Assembly (NCBI GenBank): GCA_021803885.1
Contig: JAJZKY010000295.1
Coordinates: 1-6,216 of the forward strand
From: Planctomycetota bacterium
GTDB lineage: Bacteria > Planctomycetota > Phycisphaerae > WQYP01 > JAJZKY01
DNA: 6,216 nt
Reading direction: 5' to 3'
The first letter of the stretch is position 1, and the number at the start of each line of letters is the position of its first letter. The position numbers were made by a program, and so were the translations under genes. The notes beneath the pieces are model-generated. The model was not told where the DNA came from. It made no database searches and saw only the letters and a list, made by a program, of their open reading frames with translations. This document shows, in pieces, positions 1-6,216 of this stretch.

Positions 1-64
1 GCAAGCCTTCGTTGGTATATCCCGAGAAATTCACCTCCACATCCATCGCCACCTTGTCACCGGC
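1..64. repeat. Left arm of inverted repeat (pairs with 1145-1208)
   Basis: The reverse complement of 1-64 matches 1145-1208 at 63 of 64 positions. The only difference is base 20 against base 1189, giving Gly codon GGA in the minus-strand copy and GGC in the plus-strand copy. Identity ends abruptly at 64/65. The arm may extend beyond the left edge of the window, so its full length is unknown. Confidence 0.9.
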
Positions 65-1153
65 GCTCAACGGAAACTGCAAGAAGCGCCGCGGCACGGC
101 CAAGGTCATAATATAGCCATGCGCCCATGGCTGTTGGTGTACCTGCCCGCCGGGAAGGTAACCGACGAAGGCGAAATGAACATGCCCGCCCGCAGGCGTG
201 AAATAACTGGCAGGAGCGTGGAGTTTTCGGCTCAGCGGCGCCATGGCAATGAGCCGGGGTTTGCCGCCGATCATCGCCGCGAGAATGCGCACATCCCCGG
301 GAACCGGTCCGTGCGGCCGTTTTACCCGCGGTCCCAAATCCAGGCCCACTGTATCTCCGTCGTTGAAGGCGCGCCGCGGCGAGTGGGCGCCATTCACCGG
401 CGGTCGAGCATCGGTTACCTTGAACCTGGCGTAAAGATGATGGCGGTCGAAGCCGAGTTGCACCCGTGCCAGCACTTTGCCGCCACGTTTGATGCTGCGG
501 GCCGGCAGAGATTTCCATACTGCGGCATTTTGCCATTGGCCATGAAGCGGCGCAATGACCAGATTGCCCACCGCCCGGGTGCTGCGCCCCCATTTGGACG
601 CAAGCACGTGGCTGAGCACCACGTGGCCCCACTGGCGGCTCTGGCCCTGCACTCGACCATGATTAAAGCCCAGTACACGATAAGCCATGCCTTCGTTATA
701 AGCCCACACCTGATTGAGCCTGGGATAGTATTTGACCACGCCGCAGGCATCTTCCCCGCCAAACGTATACGGGCCGGGCAGCGGCGCCTGGGTGGGATTG
801 TTAAACAGTGACCCAACATAAAAGCCATCATGGGTATAAAAATATATCTGCCCCCACTCGCTGCCCCCCGCCACGTAACGATTGCCCACCAGGCCCGCGA
901 TCACCCAGAAATGATGCAGCAGCCCATGACCGGCCTGGTTGGCGGCTTTTCGACCGGCCATCCACAGCAACCTGCCATCCGGGGCAAACTTCATGAATTT
1001 CACGGCATTGCAGCAGTCGTCATGGCCGATGCCGTGATTCATGGCCTTCGTCTCCGCCCGGGTGTAGTACGGTACCGTGGCATTGACGCAGGTATACAAA
1101 TTGCCGTGGTTATCAACCCTCATGCCCAGAATTCCGTCCCGGTAGCCGGTGAC
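1..1153 (-). CDS. Beta-propeller protein with CBM9-like C-terminal domain, partial at both ends
   Basis: The minus strand is open in one frame from about 1153 down to position 2, roughly 384 codons with no stop, and runs off the left edge. The first half looks like the end of an NHL/six-bladed beta-propeller: YRDGILGMRVDNHGNLYT, then a HDDCCNAVKFMKFAPDGRLL blade and a VKYYPRLNQVWAYNEG blade. From about 570 down to 1 comes a beta-sandwich resembling the carbohydrate family 9 (CBM9-like) domain: AVWKSLPARS, LYARFKVTDARPP, then FNDGDTVGLDLGP, ending in SAGDKVAMDVEVNFSGYTNE. Such proteins are usually exported and thought to bind glycans; the ligand is unknown. No start or signal peptide is visible, because the N-terminal part is missing at the fold-back (1145-1153), where the sequence switches to the plus-strand 3' end of the same kind of gene. 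The domain calls come from sequence pattern only. Confidence is good that this is coding and moderate for the domains. Confidence 0.75.
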
Positions 1154-1208
1154 AAGGTGGCGATGGATGTGGAGGTGAATTTCTCGGGCTATACCAACGA
1201 AGGCTTGC
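1145..1208. repeat. Right arm of inverted repeat and fold-back junction
   Basis: This is the plus-strand partner of 1-64. The switch from antisense to sense coding takes place here. Bases 1145-1153 (GCCGGTGAC) fit both reading directions: Val-Thr-Gly of the propeller in antisense and Ala-Gly-Asp of the binding domain in sense. That is about nine bases of microhomology at the join. To the left of 1145 the two arms share nothing. Confidence 0.88.
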
Positions 1209-1327
1209 AGGTGGTGTCGCGCAATTATCTGTTTTCGCCGCAAAATGATGCTGACAACACCGTCAGCGACCTGCCGTCCGAAGCAAAGCTGCATCCGCGC
1301 TGGTGGGGAATTGGCGAGGTTCGATAG
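1145..1327 (+). pseudogene. Detached 3' end of the propeller/CBM9-like gene
   Basis: Sixty sense codons followed by TAG. The protein starts AGDKVAMDVEVNFSGYTNEG, which is the same peptide that the minus-strand gene reaches at the left edge of the window. It then continues through NYLFSPQND and PSEAKL to HPRWWGIGEVR and stops. The ending, with a PSEAKL stretch followed by a WWG motif, is what I expect at the end of CBM9-like domains in this kind of secreted protein. Upstream of 1145 the plus frame stays open back to an ATG at 830, but that part is only the antisense of the propeller and should not be counted as protein. Putting the minus-strand fragment in front of this piece gives one uninterrupted protein, so this is the true C-terminus separated by the inverted junction. 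It has no start or ribosome site of its own, so it is unlikely to be made as it stands. Confidence 0.7.
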
Positions 1328-1643
1328 ATGTGTGAACCAAAACGCCAGGCCAGGCGCGGTTGGGAATGTTGACGCCAGGAAGAGGTTGTCGTGCTTGGGC
1401 CCCTTGCCGACGCTTCTCCCGGGCGGACCAAAACGCCGGCCGGTGATTTTCGTATATCCATCGGCAATTGTGATGGGATCCTACCGCGGTCGTATACCGG
1501 GGGATTTCCAAGGCGCCAAGGCCCATGGTTTTCAGTTTGGGGCGGTGCGTTCCTACCGGACGGCGTATGTGGCTGTGATGCACGGTGTACGGATGGTTGG
1601 GAAAGCGTGGCCACATGGGCGGGACTACAATGTGGAGTTTTTG
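1328..1643. other. Intergenic region upstream of the SGNH hydrolase
   Basis: A 316-base stretch between the TAG of the detached 3' end and the chosen ATG of the hydrolase. Several frames on both strands are open across it, but the peptides are rich in Arg, Pro and Gly, have no recognisable motif and lack convincing ribosome sites. I treat them as chance in GC-rich DNA. I found no clear terminator hairpin, promoter pair or RNA gene. Confidence 0.5.
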
Positions 1644-2870
1644 ATGACAGTGACCCTACACCGCTATACGTACCTCATGTTGGCCTTCGTTGGCATCTGG
1701 TTTATCGCCCCGGTTGGGCGCGGGGCCGTAGCATCCTTTGGCCAGTTTGATCAACAGGCCCGTGCGGGGCGGCCGATGTCGGTGGTATTTTTCGGTGGGT
1801 CGCTGACCTGGGGCGCCAATGCCCGTAATCCGCAGCGCAACAGCTACCGAGCCTTGATGGAGCGTTATTTAGAGAACAAATACCCCCGCACGCAGTTTCG
1901 GTTTCATGATGCGGCGATTGGCGGGACTGGGTCCATGCTGGGGCTGTTTCGGCTGCGGCGTGATGTTCTGGCCTATAAGCCCAACCTGGTGTTTTTGGAA
2001 TTTACCGCTAACGACAATCTATACGGCGCCGATGTCCAGACGCTGGCCTGCTACGAGCGCATTTTGCGCACGCTGATCCAGAAAGGTGTGCCGGTGGAAC
2101 AGGTTTTTCTGGGGTTTAAATCCAACTATGGCCCACAGGCTAAGTCTGCCAAGTGGCCGCGCCTGATAGCCCACCAGCGACTGGCGGCGGCGTACCGTAC
2201 GGCGGTCGGCGATAGCTTTCCGCTGGTGAATCGGTGGTTGGCGGGCGGGCGGATCACGATAAACCGGATGTATCCATTTGACGGCGTTCATCCGGGCGAT
2301 GCGGGCTACCAGTTATTTTTTCAGGCGGTACGTAACGGATTTGTGCGGGCGGTGAAAGCCCGACAGGTGTGCCGGGCGCCGGCGCATACGGTCTTTCCGA
2401 ATCTGTATCGTCACTGGCAGCGGATACGTCTGGCCCGGAGACATTTGCCCGCCGGCTGGCAGGTGGCGCGCACGTATCGGACTTCGATGTGGTTTGACGG
2501 GCTTTCCAGCCGCTGGATGGGCGATGTGGCTATGTGCCAAGCTAAAGATCACGCCGTTATTCAGCCGTTGATGATACATTTCCGCGGCACCCTTGTGGGT
2601 CTTTTGGGCGAGGCAGATGGCCAGAGTTTATCCTTCCGGGCGTGGGTGGATGGCAAACCGGTTCTACCGCCCGGGGCGCAGCACCGTAAGATCGGCGACC
2701 GCTGGAGTTGGAATACGAGTCGATTCGGCGGCGGGCGGCTTTTTATGTGGCAAGTGTTGTCCGACCACCTTCCGCCTGGTAGGCATACCCTTAAGCTCAT
2801 GGCCATATTGCCAAAAGGGCAACCGAAAGGGCAATTGCGAATTGAAAGCGTCTGTGCGGCGGGAAACTGA
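1644..2870 (+). CDS. Secreted SGNH/GDSL-type hydrolase (putative carbohydrate esterase)
   Basis: A 408-residue protein. Residues 1-30 look like a signal peptide: Arg7, then a hydrophobic stretch from Tyr10 to about Val24, and Ala-Val-Ala before a likely cut after residue 30. The SGNH blocks are all visible: block I GGSLTWGAN with nucleophile Ser53 (the motif is GGSL, not GDSL); Gly93/Gly94 in AAIGGTGS for block II; Asn123 in FTANDN for block III; and Asp213/His216 in DGVHPGDAGY for block V. Known members deacylate esters, often acetyl groups on polysaccharides; the substrate here cannot be read from sequence. Residues about 240-408 form a second, probably beta-sandwich region (FRGTLVGLLGE, FRAWVDGKP, LPPGRHTLKL), perhaps a binding or accessory domain. 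The frame is open back to 1245, but the ATG at 1644 is preferred because GGAG lies 6 bases upstream and a signal peptide follows at once. The preceding plus-strand gene end encodes a CBM9-like protein, consistent with joint glycan work outside the cytoplasm. Confidence 0.85.
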   Translation: MTVTLHRYTYLMLAFVGIWFIAPVGRGAVASFGQFDQQARAGRPMSVVFFGGSLTWGANARNPQRNSYRALMERYLENKYPRTQFRFHDAAIGGTGSMLGLFRLRRDVLAYKPNLVFLEFTANDNLYGADVQTLACYERILRTLIQKGVPVEQVFLGFKSNYGPQAKSAKWPRLIAHQRLAAAYRTAVGDSFPLVNRWLAGGRITINRMYPFDGVHPGDAGYQLFFQAVRNGFVRAVKARQVCRAPAHTVFPNLYRHWQRIRLARRHLPAGWQVARTYRTSMWFDGLSSRWMGDVAMCQAKDHAVIQPLMIHFRGTLVGLLGEADGQSLSFRAWVDGKPVLPPGAQHRKIGDRWSWNTSRFGGGRLFMWQVLSDHLPPGRHTLKLMAILPKGQPKGQLRIESVCAAGN

Positions 2871-3063
2871 CCGGGCGCGACAGCAACCATCTGCTCAAGA
2901 TGGCTATGGGCTTGACTGGCGTGCTGCGCAGTGGCGTAGCCCAGGCTTTGGAGGACCCGGCAGGTTCTGGTTCGAGACAGGATGTCGCCTCCACCGGCGG
3001 GCGATGCTCTTGCGTGCCGGGACGGCCGCACGGAATCGATGGAAATTCAAGATTTTCAAAGTA

Positions 3064-3137
3064 TGCGCCCGGCAGGACTCGAACCTGCAACCTCGTGGTT
3101 CGAAGCCACGCGCTCTATCCAATTGCGCTACGGGCGC
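3064..3137 (-). tRNA. tRNA-Arg, anticodon TCG
   Basis: A 74-nt cloverleaf fits on the minus strand. The acceptor GCGCCCG pairs with CGGGCGC, followed by discriminator A at 3064. The D arm is GCGC-AATTGGATA-GAGC, with a G12-A23 mismatch. The anticodon arm CGTGG-CTTCGAA-CCACG places TCG at 34-36, which reads Arg CGA and, if A or U at position 34 is modified, other CGN codons. The variable loop is AGGTT and the T arm is GCAGG-TTCGAGT-CCTGC. The 3' CCA is not encoded (TAC follows), so it would be added by the CCA-adding enzyme. It lies 90 bases downstream of the isomerase gene on the same strand; I see no obvious promoter or terminator of its own. Confidence 0.96.
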
Positions 3138-3227
3138 GCGTTGGTTTTGCCACCGCGATCAAGGGCAGCCACACTGCGATCCGCATGGAAAGCGGCGGCC
3201 CAGGGAGAGGGGGAAGAAAGTTCACTT

Positions 3228-4268
3228 TTAACTCTTCTTATCAAACTGAGCGTCAAAAACAATGCTGCTGGGAGCAAAGTCAATTTTTTTCACAAAGGCC
3301 GCGGCTTCGGTGGCGCCATGTTCACGGTCCATGTTTTGATCCTCCCATTCCACTGATAACGGACCCGCGTAGCCGATTTCATTGAGAGCGCGGATGATCT
3401 GCTCAAAATTAACGCTGCCATGACCCAGGGACCGGAACTCCCAGAAACGTTCCGGATGGCCGAAGGGCAGGTGGCCGCCGAACACACCGCTGCGGCGCGG
3501 CACGGGGCTGACCCAGGCATCTTTCATGTGCACGTGATAGATGCGGTTGCGAAATTCACGGATAAATTGTACGTAGTCAACGCCTTGATAAACAAAATGG
3601 GAGGGATCGAAATTGAAGCCAAAGGCAGGTCGATTTTTGATGGCATCGAGCGCCGCGCGGGCACTGGCGATATCGAAGGCGATTTCGGTCGGGTGCACTT
3701 CCAGGGCGAACACGACGCCCTGTTCGTCAAAACTGTCGAGAATCGGATTCCAAGTGCGGGCGAAATGGGCAAAGCCGTCTTCGATCTGATTGGCCAGCAC
3801 GGGTGGAAAGCTATAGACCAGATGCCAGATGCTGCTGCCGGTGAATCCGTTGACCACGACCCGGCGGAGTTCCTTTTTGATCGCGGCGGGGGCGGCATCA
3901 AAGAATTTGCGTGCCGCCTGGGCGGTGCGTTTCATTTCTTCCGCGGCTCGCTTGTTGACCCCTTCCGGTTTGCCATCACCCCAAATGCGCGCCGGCAAAA
4001 TGCTTTGGTGGCGGGCATCAATACGGTCGCATACGGCCTGACCGACCAGATGCGTGCTGATAGCCAGGCATTTCAATCCATAACGCGTCAGCGTGGCCCA
4101 TTTATTTTTGATATAGGTCTTGTCGGCCAGCGCCTGTTCCACATCAAAATGATCGCCCCAGCAGGGGATTTCGATGCCGTCATAACCAAATGCTTTGGCT
4201 TTTTTGCAGGCTGTCTCAAACGGCAGATCAGCCCATTGACCGGTAAATAAAGTTACAGCGCGTGCCAT
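3228..4268 (-). CDS. Sugar phosphate isomerase/epimerase-like TIM-barrel protein
   Basis: A 346-residue protein of the xylose-isomerase-like (AP endonuclease 2) TIM-barrel superfamily. The N-terminus [15 protein letters not shown] leads into the first helix and [14 protein letters not shown], the typical second strand; Ser71-Thr72-His73 lies on the next. The metal-site pattern is complete: Glu190 in FALEVHP, Asp221 and His224 in FNFDPSHF, His247 in YHVHMKDA, and Glu307 in LSVEWED. Members isomerise or epimerise sugars and related polyols using a divalent metal; the substrate here is unknown. No signal peptide is visible, so it is presumably cytoplasmic. The frame continues upstream to an ATG at 4307, but the ATG at 4268 is chosen because GGAG (minus strand of 4276-4279) sits 7 bases ahead and MARAV matches the usual family start. 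It stands alone, with the tRNA-Arg downstream and a divergent small gene upstream. Confidence 0.88.
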
Positions 4269-4354
4269 GATTTTTCTCCAGTGCATTGGCGGCTTCAACC
4301 ACGGCAACCGCGTTCACCTGTAAGCGTCGTGCCGCGAGAAGCCACGGTTGGATT

Positions 4355-4382
4355 ATGATAAGGGCATACTCAAAAAAGGCAA
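4355..4382 (-). promoter_or_regulatory. Candidate sigma-70-type promoter for the isomerase gene
   Basis: On the minus strand, TTGCCT (4382-4377) and TATCAT (4360-4355) are separated by 16 bases, and the spacer is T-rich at its start. Transcription would begin near 4348, giving an 80-base leader before the ATG at 4268. The match is partial and rests on inspection only. Confidence 0.35.
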
Positions 4383-4397
4383 CCGGCGTTATGAAGT

Positions 4398-4416
4398 GCC
4401 GCGCGAAAAGCGCGGC
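4398..4416. other. GC-rich hairpin in the divergent intergenic region
   Basis: GCCGCGC and GCGCGGC form a perfect 7-bp stem around a GAAAA loop. There is no T-run on either side, so it does not look like a terminator. It lies upstream of the candidate isomerase promoter and could be an operator-like palindrome or chance in GC-rich DNA. Confidence 0.35.
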
Positions 4417-4520
4417 GTCGCTGGTGCGGATGGGAGGACACTCGGTTCAAGTTCGGGCACAATGCGGCAGAAGGGGCAGGCTGGACGAGCGACACGGCCG
4501 GGACGCGGCAAGGCAGTCGA

Positions 4521-4549
4521 TTCCAACGGGCCATTGTTGGTGTTAAAAT
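4521..4549 (+). promoter_or_regulatory. Weak candidate promoter for the small membrane protein-queG unit
   Basis: TAAAAT at 4544-4549 is a one-mismatch -10 box. TTCCAA at 4521-4526, 17 bases upstream, is a poor -35. Transcription would start near 4556, about 34 bases before the ATG at 4590. The position is sensible for the two-gene unit, but the -35 match is weak. Confidence 0.3.
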
Positions 4550-4589
4550 GTGCTGGTGGTTTACATCGTTCGGACTTGGATGGTAGGCA

Positions 4590-4961
4590 ATGTCAATGCT
4601 GACGTTCATCTTGAATATTTTGCCCGGCGATGCCGAGGTCAATGCGAAGGGCGGAGGCAGCGCCTCGACATATATTTTGGCCGGAGGACTTTCCGTGCTG
4701 ATTGTGGGCTGGGGGGTGCTGCGCTACTGGCTGTGGACCGGGCGCAAGCCCAAGTCTAATGAGATACCCACTCCGACCATCGACCGGCTGAATATCCAAG
4801 CGCTGAGCAAAATTACAGAACAAAATGATCTGCCTTTGGAAACGGTGGATGAGCCAGCTCCGGATGATCTGTTGGCGGTTGTACCCGCCAATGCCCACCT
4901 GCAAAAAGCGCCGGCCACTCCTGCTGTTGCTTCGCCCAACCCGTATTCCAACAAGAAGTGA
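4590..4961 (+). CDS. Small single-pass membrane protein of unknown function
   Basis: A 123-residue protein that I do not recognise. Residues 1-11 are hydrophobic (MSMLTFILNIL). A short acidic/glycine-rich link (PGDAEVNAKGGG) follows, then one clear membrane segment at about 27-49 (TYILAGGLSVLIVGWGVLRY). The positive stretch TGRKPK after it suggests that the C-terminal side faces the cytoplasm. Residues 55-123 are polar and rich in Pro, Ala and Asp, probably disordered, ending in NPYSNKK. The ATG at 4590 is preferred over one at 4596 because the purine-rich GGATGG (4578-4583) is well spaced for it. The stop codon sits 4 bases before the queG start, so the two are likely cotranscribed and possibly translationally coupled. 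Nothing in the sequence ties it to queuosine synthesis; the pairing may only reflect shared transcription. Confidence 0.7.
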   Translation: MSMLTFILNILPGDAEVNAKGGGSASTYILAGGLSVLIVGWGVLRYWLWTGRKPKSNEIPTPTIDRLNIQALSKITEQNDLPLETVDEPAPDDLLAVVPANAHLQKAPATPAVASPNPYSNKK

Positions 4962-4965
4962 TGCC

Positions 4966-5994
4966 ATGGCTTCGTCAAGCAATGATGCTATTTCCATCGC
5001 CGGCGCCAAGGTGGTGTCGGCGGCGCAAATAAAGCAACTGGCAGAAGAGGTCGGCTTTAATCTGGTTGGCATTGCGGATCCTTCGGAGAGTGTTTATGCA
5101 CGCGAATATCGAGCTTGGCTGGCCCAAGGGCAACACGGTGGCATGAAATATCTGGAAGATTCGCTGGCCGCGCGGACGAATCTTTCTGGCGCGTTTCCAT
5201 GGGTTAAAAGCGTCATCAGTGTGGCGATTTCGTACTACTCGCCGGAACCCGCGCCGGAATTGTCGCAGGCGGCAGACACCTTGGATGAATCCCACGCTGA
5301 GCCGGCGCCTGGCCCCGGGTCTGCATCCAGAGGACGCATCGCCCGTTACGCCTGGGGAAGGGATTATCATCGGGTGTTGATGGGGCATTTGCGAGAATTA
5401 CAAAGAAAAATTCAAAGCATCACTGCAGGTGACTGCGTCTGTCGTGCGTATGTGGATACCGGCCCGGTCCATGAGCGGGAACTCGCGGCTCGCGCCGGCC
5501 TTGGCTGGATCGGCAAAAACACCTTGCTGATTAACCCGCGACATGGAAGCTGGTTTTTACTGGGCGAATTGCTGACGTCCCTGCCGCTGGAGTTTGACTC
5601 TGCAGAGCCGGATCACTGTGGTACATGCACGCGATGCATCGATGCCTGTCCCACCGCCGCCCTTACGCCCTACCAGCTTAATGCGACTCGTTGCATCAGT
5701 TATCACACTCTGGAAAATCGGGGCGATATTCCCGAAGAAATTCATCAACCGATGCGCGAAGCTCAATATCTTCTCGGCTGCGATATCTGCCAGACCGTAT
5801 GCCCATGGAATCACCGGCCATTGCTCAGCGAAGAACGCGATTTTCAGCCGCAAGCTCCGGCCCCGGCAGTGGAGTTACAAGCGGTGCGACAATGGCAACC
5901 AGAGGATTGGGATCGACTCACGCGGGGCAGAGCTCACCGCCGTGCCAAACTGGATATGTGGCAGCGCACGGCACGCATTCTGGCGGAAGATTAA
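4966..5994 (+). CDS. queG: Epoxyqueuosine reductase QueG
   Basis: A 342-residue cytoplasmic enzyme that reduces epoxyqueuosine to queuosine at the wobble position of GUN-anticodon tRNAs, using cobalamin and two [4Fe-4S] clusters. Family signatures are strong: GRIARYAWGRDYH at 123-135; YVDTGPVHERELAARAG with the candidate catalytic Asp164; GLGWIGKNTLLI; a ferredoxin-type set at Cys218, 221, 224 and 228 (CGTCTRCIDACP); Cys243 in RCISYHTLENRG; and Cys272, 275 and 279 in CDICQTVCPWN. Two features stand out: a Pro/Ala/Glu-rich stretch at about 93-121, and His169 where I expect Leu in the DTGPVLE motif. It ends soon after RRAKLDMWQRTARILAED, so it lacks the added HEAT-repeat extension of longer homologues. 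The ATG at 4966 follows a purine-rich AAGAAG by 7 bases; the frame is open further upstream, but that part overlaps the preceding gene and does not look like QueG. Confidence 0.95.
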   Translation: MASSSNDAISIAGAKVVSAAQIKQLAEEVGFNLVGIADPSESVYAREYRAWLAQGQHGGMKYLEDSLAARTNLSGAFPWVKSVISVAISYYSPEPAPELSQAADTLDESHAEPAPGPGSASRGRIARYAWGRDYHRVLMGHLRELQRKIQSITAGDCVCRAYVDTGPVHERELAARAGLGWIGKNTLLINPRHGSWFLLGELLTSLPLEFDSAEPDHCGTCTRCIDACPTAALTPYQLNATRCISYHTLENRGDIPEEIHQPMREAQYLLGCDICQTVCPWNHRPLLSEERDFQPQAPAPAVELQAVRQWQPEDWDRLTRGRAHRRAKLDMWQRTARILAED

Positions 5995-6052
5995 GGGCTG
6001 CGGTGATAAAAAAACTTTGGGGTACCGCGATAGGCGGCCACAACGGGAAATG

Positions 6053-6092
6053 CCAACGGGAAGCCTTGCGGCTCCCCGTTGGGAATTTTTCT
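6053..6092 (+). terminator. Intrinsic terminator after queG
   Basis: CCAACGGG (6053-6060) pairs with CCCGTTGG (6075-6082). After one A-C mismatch the stem continues as AGCC/GGCT around a TTGC loop. GAA and a run of five T (6086-6090) follow. It lies 58 bases past the queG stop and should end the membrane protein-queG transcript. In the minus direction there is no T-run, so it is probably one-directional. Confidence 0.88.
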
Positions 6093-6160
6093 CGTTGGCC
6101 GACGATGTAACCAGCCGCGCTGTGCGGGCGAATATCCTAATCCGGCGGACCAGAATAGGG

Positions 6161-6182
6161 CGTGAAGGCTTAGGCCTTCACG
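6161..6182. other. Perfect 9-bp hairpin spanning the stop codon of the minus-strand gene
   Basis: CGTGAAGGC and GCCTTCACG pair perfectly around a TTAG loop. On the minus strand the TAA stop of the entering gene lies at 6172-6170, partly in the loop. No T-run follows on either strand (minus continues CCCTATTC), so it is not a standard intrinsic terminator, though it could protect the 3' end or slow readthrough into queG. Confidence 0.6.
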
Positions 6183-6216
6183 TTGCGGCGGCGGCCACCC
6201 AGGAGGAGCAAAGCTC
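6170..6216 (-). CDS. C-terminal end of a probable PEP-CTERM (exosortase-type) protein, partial
   Basis: Only the last 14 full codons and the TAA are in the window: Ala-Leu-Leu-Leu-Leu-Gly-Gly-Arg-Arg-Arg-Asn-Val-Lys-Ala-stop. A hydrophobic Leu run, then Gly-Gly, then an Arg cluster close to the end is the usual finish of PEP-CTERM sorting signals, in which a Pro-Glu-Pro motif would lie about 20 residues upstream, outside this window. Known PEP-CTERM proteins are exported and processed by an exosortase, often in biofilm-forming Gram-negative bacteria, including Planctomycetota and Verrucomicrobiota. It converges on queG, with the terminator between them. The evidence is short, and a plain C-terminal membrane anchor would look alike. 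Confidence 0.55.
   Translation of the reverse strand, partial: ALLLLGGRRRNVKA

Follow-up and report, generated by a model that had tools for sequence, protein, structure and literature searches.

The window, by which we mean the whole stretch of 6216 bases that was analysed (58% G+C), carries at its left end the parts of a propeller-CBM9 gene printed on opposite strands, followed on the right by a GDSL lipase/acylhydrolase gene, a tRNA-Arg gene, a TIM-barrel gene and QueG. The features on which the argument turns are these:

1–64, minus strand: start of the inverted arm, a second (inverted) copy of codons AGDKVAMDVEVNFSGYTNEGL, clipped by the window edge (repeat search, 63/64 to 1145–1208)
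65–1144, minus strand: middle of the gene in antisense, the second propeller part and most of the CBM9-fold domain, residues YRDGIL...PLS (translation and colinear relatives)
1145–1208, plus strand: first copy of the repeated codons, within the gene's genuine C-terminal context (repeat search and translation)
1145–1153, no strand: the junction, GCCGGTGAC, probably with 6–8 bases of microhomology to the natural sequence upstream of YRDG (comparison with relatives)
1145–1327, plus strand: genuine C-terminus of the propeller-CBM9 gene, with its natural stop (translation and C-termini of relatives)
1644–2870, plus strand: GDSL lipase/acylhydrolase gene, which follows the propeller-CBM9 gene; its start codon is predicted (Pfam PF13472)

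One strong inverted repeat was found in the window, its arms (1–64 and 1145–1208) being identical at 63 of 64 bases and separated by 1080 bases. Shuffled versions of the left arm, 60 in all, reached at most 33/64, as compared with 63/64 for the best real match elsewhere in the window. The sole mismatch, at position 20, is synonymous (Gly GGA in the left copy, GGC in the right). Translation of the minus strand from 1144 downward gives YRDGILGMRVDN...LSAGDKVAMDVEVNFSGYTNEGL, which reaches base 2 at the window edge, and the plus strand from 1145 to 1327 encodes AGDKVAMDVEVNFSGYTNEGLQVVSR...GEVR-stop, that is, AGDKVAMDVEVNFSGYTNEGL first and then QVVSRNYLFSPQ...GEVR, with the stop at 1327. When minus 1144–65 and plus 1145–1327 are joined they form a single open frame of 420 codons; the two are consecutive parts of one gene. 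The initial annotation, which had proposed that 1–64 is the inverted copy of 1145–1208, that antisense and sense halves of one gene meet here, and that the sense half begins with the peptide found at the left edge and runs to the natural stop, was therefore correct on all of these points.

Pfam has no name for the propeller-CBM9 family of which this gene is a member. Neither of its parts in the window has a Pfam match at the curated cut-off, which sets them apart from the CBM9 modules represented by PDB 1i82 and 7nwn, and the family profile returned no match among PDB sequences at E values up to 1. The label of a propeller/CBM9-like protein, first given from the sequence alone, is nevertheless borne out by the modelled fold of a relative (P0004), in which the C-terminal domain is predicted to be a CBM9 beta-sandwich. 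Among 7997 scored candidates, 29 proteins were homologous to the 420-residue joined protein, and the best of these were 69% (P0003) and 59% (P0004) identical over the full query. The 420 residues thus align end to end with propeller-CBM9 proteins like those of Planctomycetota and Phycisphaerae metagenome-assembled genomes (for example, P0004 of JABEVA010000160 and locus L001 of JAJZCR010000075), although in those genomes the genes are colinear and possess an upstream part that is absent from the window. The closest homologue, P0003 (579 aa, on a contig of 4589 bases), is itself unusual in that an alcohol dehydrogenase N-terminal domain (PF08240) runs straight into the middle of the propeller, and it may be a chimera or an in-frame deletion of its own.

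The natural order of the gene can be read from its relatives. A scan of genome_contigs yielded 15 loci (L001–L015), 12 of them titled Planctomycetota or Phycisphaerae and the others Spartobacteria, Bacteroidetes and Verrucomicrobia. Both gene parts share a strand at 14 of the 15, where they follow one another as in the gene and show the 21-codon overlap expected of one continuous gene; at the fifteenth (L010) the contig edge is reached before the second part. The part at 65–1144 is 83–84% identical in amino acids to the four closest loci, and the C-terminus at 1145–1327 is 55–88% identical to the C-termini of 11 Planctomycetota/Phycisphaerae loci. A wider search took in 28 genomes of the family of one relative (G004), 9 of which were matched, and gave 13 further loci (L039–L051). 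Both parts are present and colinear in 9 of these 13, one (L040) has the first part only, and three (L041, L042, L048) have neither. Four of the nine (L043–L046) cover again places already counted, and the remaining five amount to four new places, since L039 and L047 coincide; the others are L049, L050 and L051, the last being the second copy on the L001 contig. A copy from the same species was sought in these 28 genomes as well, and the best match, 82% over the left part, was not close enough. The contigs of L001 and L003 each hold a second propeller-CBM9 copy, about 60% identical and some 8 kb upstream of the first, and matches on several contigs of one genome suggest that propeller-CBM9 is a multicopy family.

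The inverted repeat itself is not a feature of these relatives. No two-armed inverted repeat of at least 30 nt at 85% identity or more was found in any of 23 related stretches on 20 distinct contigs, a control that comprised L001–L015 and L031–L038 and left out the short pieces L016–L030 as well as L039–L051; L014 showed two self-palindromes only, of 34–36 nt. In addition, the antisense part had no match among plasmids (tblastn), and the junction word, 24 bases around 1145, had none in viral_contigs, so that those contigs offer no second record of the join.

The window also lacks a part of the gene. In L001–L014 the open frame extends 150–1048 codons upstream of YRDG, and it is still open at the contig start in L004, L008 and L012; in the 10 loci where the frame is closed at both ends it measures 1299–1477 codons from stop to stop. 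Directly upstream of YRDG, the eight relatives that were aligned read VPVVLGRAGSRLFTG or similar, whereas the window has in that place the antisense of the gene's own C-terminus.

We conclude that bases 1–1144 are most likely a technical fold-back chimera left at what is presumably a contig end, a reading to which we assign a probability of about 0.9 and which the relatives support without proving it directly. The second segment is inverted relative to its genomic place, as judged from the natural order in 14 of 15 loci, and the junction sites are only 1080 nt apart, well within the neighbourhood (mostly <10 kb) in which such chimeras arise. Both breakpoints are predicted, from the model of P0004, to fall inside domains (the propeller and the CBM9 fold) and away from domain borders. 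The initial suggestion of an inverted chimera of the kind produced by multiple-displacement amplification (MDA) or misassembly thus agrees with the colinear relatives, the inverted orientation, the short distance and the unconserved repeat; with the microhomology it agrees in part.

The microhomology deserves a closer look, as about nine bases had been claimed. The nine bases GCCGGTGAC are part of the AGD codons, and to call them microhomology one would need the gene's natural sequence upstream of YRDG, which is absent from the window. Eight relatives were compared in its place: 5–8 of the last nine bases match, and the uninterrupted identity up to the junction covers 8 nt in L002, 6 in L006 and L010, 3 in L005, 1 in L001, and 0 in L003, L004 and L014. 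A microhomology of about 6–8 bases is therefore likely for the organism's own sequence, as far as relatives can stand in for it, but an exact run of only 0–3 nt in five of the eight, including three of the four closest, counts against an artefact.

In the MDA study by Lasken and Stockwell (2007; PMC1855051), 85% of 475 chimeras were inverted, 83% of the inversions joined sequences less than 10 kb apart, and 93.5% of the inverted chimeras under 10 kb showed complementarity at the junction. The present case resembles these in that two segments of one locus, 1080 nt apart, are inverted with probable short complementarity at the junction; it differs in that theirs were found in single reads, whereas ours stands in assembled sequence. 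There is also a likeness, in the strand being copied back within one molecule, to the fold-back reads that PMC12870357 puts at about 0.55–0.6% of nanopore genomic DNA reads, and to the palindromic reads that, in PMC13265396, make up roughly one third of mitochondrial reads when MDA is combined with long reads. The tool described in PMC12870357 calls fold-backs whose second part maps to the other strand no more than 200 bp from the first, while here 1080 nt separate the two junction sites and are kept as a spacer.

How might the fold-back have formed? In the organism, the gene would be colinear, with the upstream part, YRDGIL..., AGDKVAM... and QVVSR...stop in that order, followed by the GDSL lipase gene. 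We infer a strand switch of laboratory origin, in which a freed 3' end would have changed strands while the DNA was being copied. Perhaps an antisense strand whose end lay at the AGD codons skipped forward by 1080 nt to a displaced strand, just before YRDG, and was copied back. Or, perhaps an antisense strand at the codons before YRDG snapped back, folding its 3' end (about GCCGGTGA) onto TCACCGGC, which it had made 1080 nt earlier. Both routes would yield the printed order. Hairpin self-priming was judged to be no major player in MDA, according to PMC1855051, which counts against the snap-back and makes the displaced-strand route the likelier of the two, if MDA was used. Reads of the chimeric molecule would then have been assembled into a contig that stops 64 bases into the second arm; position 1 is presumably the contig end, to judge from the odd length of the window and the stop inside the arm. 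The responsible step may have been MDA, library preparation or the assembler.

The strongest competitor is a real chromosomal inverted duplication, in which a strand switch during replication produced a long palindrome with a 1080-nt spacer, broke a copy of the gene and left the second arm to the left of position 1. Its arms, possible microhomology and lost upstream part would look the same as those of the artefact, and the single synonymous difference in 64 bases would fit two copies now diverging; indeed, the mismatch at position 20 could reflect two diverged genomic copies rather than an error of copying or base calling, which counts against the artefact. Set against this are the absence of such a repeat from all 23 related stretches, the colinear order in 14 of 14 loci with both parts, and a second arm that is present for 64 bases only. 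Long palindromes are, moreover, unstable in bacteria. We therefore regard a duplication in vivo in this uncultured planctomycete as having a slim chance of being right.

An error of assembly alone, in which the assembler joined correct reads through a short shared word with no chimeric molecule involved, seems very improbable. Three of the eight relatives do share a word of 6–8 bases, and the related contigs come from low-coverage metagenome assemblies (1.9–6.9 in the titles that state coverage). De Bruijn assemblers, however, depend on exact overlaps of about 20 bases or more, which is longer than the junction microhomology, and a chimeric molecule is thus the simpler source.

Least credible of all, to the point of being nearly negligible, is an invertible switch in which recombination between the near-perfect 64-bp inverted repeats (63 matches) flips 65–1144 and turns the gene on or off: flipping this segment of about 1.1 kb would, as had been foreseen, join it in frame to the C-terminus and complete the last 420 codons, but it would set QAFVGISREIHLHIHRHLVTG, the antisense of the C-terminus, before YRDG, where the relatives have VPVVLGRAGSRLFTG, the remainder of the propeller and codons still farther upstream, so that the gene would not be restored and the switch reading fails. 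The repeats are, besides, coding sequence with no such inverted pair in the 23 related stretches, and no recombinase family was matched by any of the six window proteins scanned with Pfam, although such a gene could lie beyond the window.

As an artefact, the fold-back matters only for annotation. The 431-codon minus-strand frame at 2–1294 and the 165-codon plus-strand frame at 830–1327 span the false join, and neither ought to be entered in databases as a protein. More generally, relatives make it possible to judge a fold-back even when the origin of its contig is unknown, and the failure of the flip to restore their upstream codons speaks against a gene-restoring switch. If the structure were a true inverted duplication in vivo, it would illustrate, in an uncultured planctomycete, strand-switch rearrangement occurring in nature.

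What clearly stands out as anomalous in the window is the left join; the remainder (1145–6216) looks like ordinary planctomycete chromosome. The GDSL gene begins some 320 bases after the propeller gene, and a GDSL gene likewise lies downstream in L001, L002, L003 and L015, at a distance of about 150 bases in L002 and of 4.6–4.8 kb in the others. The remaining loci gave no such match. Of these, L004 ends about 160 bases past the gene; L005, which is a more distant copy and shares its genome with L015, has 10 kb of downstream sequence with no GDSL match. At 1438–1582 the window matches, at 71–73% of DNA positions, the 3' part of a gene that lies between the propeller and GDSL genes in L001, L003 and L015, and this stretch is probably a remnant of that intervening gene's 3' part.

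Beyond the GDSL gene, the tRNA-Arg, TIM-barrel and QueG genes were matched in the same order as in the window in G002, G003 and G004; the contig of G005 ends before the tRNA, and in G006 only the tRNA and TIM-barrel genes occur together. An Rfam scan of the window found the tRNA only. The exact GDSL-to-tRNA join of the window was seen in no relative, and a second chimera at 2870–3064 was considered since the TIM-barrel and QueG genes are on a different contig from the GDSL gene in G002, G003 and G005, as is the tRNA-Arg in G002 and G003. We did not accept it: G003:C64 and G005:C178 have short copies of the tRNA 3' part behind their GDSL gene, and the GDSL gene of G001:C19 leads, at the end of its contig, into a stretch that lies upstream of the tRNA in G004:C62. 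Two findings count against this dismissal, the lack of the window's exact join in the relatives and the failure of 2871–3063 to outscore shuffled sequence in any of six comparisons.

In relatives, the tRNA-Arg(TCG) gene (3064–3137, minus strand, in the window) has the look of an integration site. Its 3' part recurs there in copies of 27–40 nt: in G003 and G005 they follow the GDSL gene, and in G002 a copy lies 3.6 kb upstream of the tRNA. The places recorded are the two contigs just named and L031:11693–11729. Frames whose ends resemble that of a tyrosine recombinase (HPEHVVC..MGNS..VA.EH.LQ) lie next to the tRNA in G002 and G004, and in G001 where the contig ends. No match to the tRNA 3' copy was found in window positions 2871–3063, and this interval may be an empty integration site. 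At the right end of the window, the minus strand at 6169–6214 reads ALLLLGGRRRNVKA-stop, a tail that we take to resemble a PEP-CTERM anchor, and repeated tails of this PEP-CTERM-like kind could explain why the sequence ends at the right edge.
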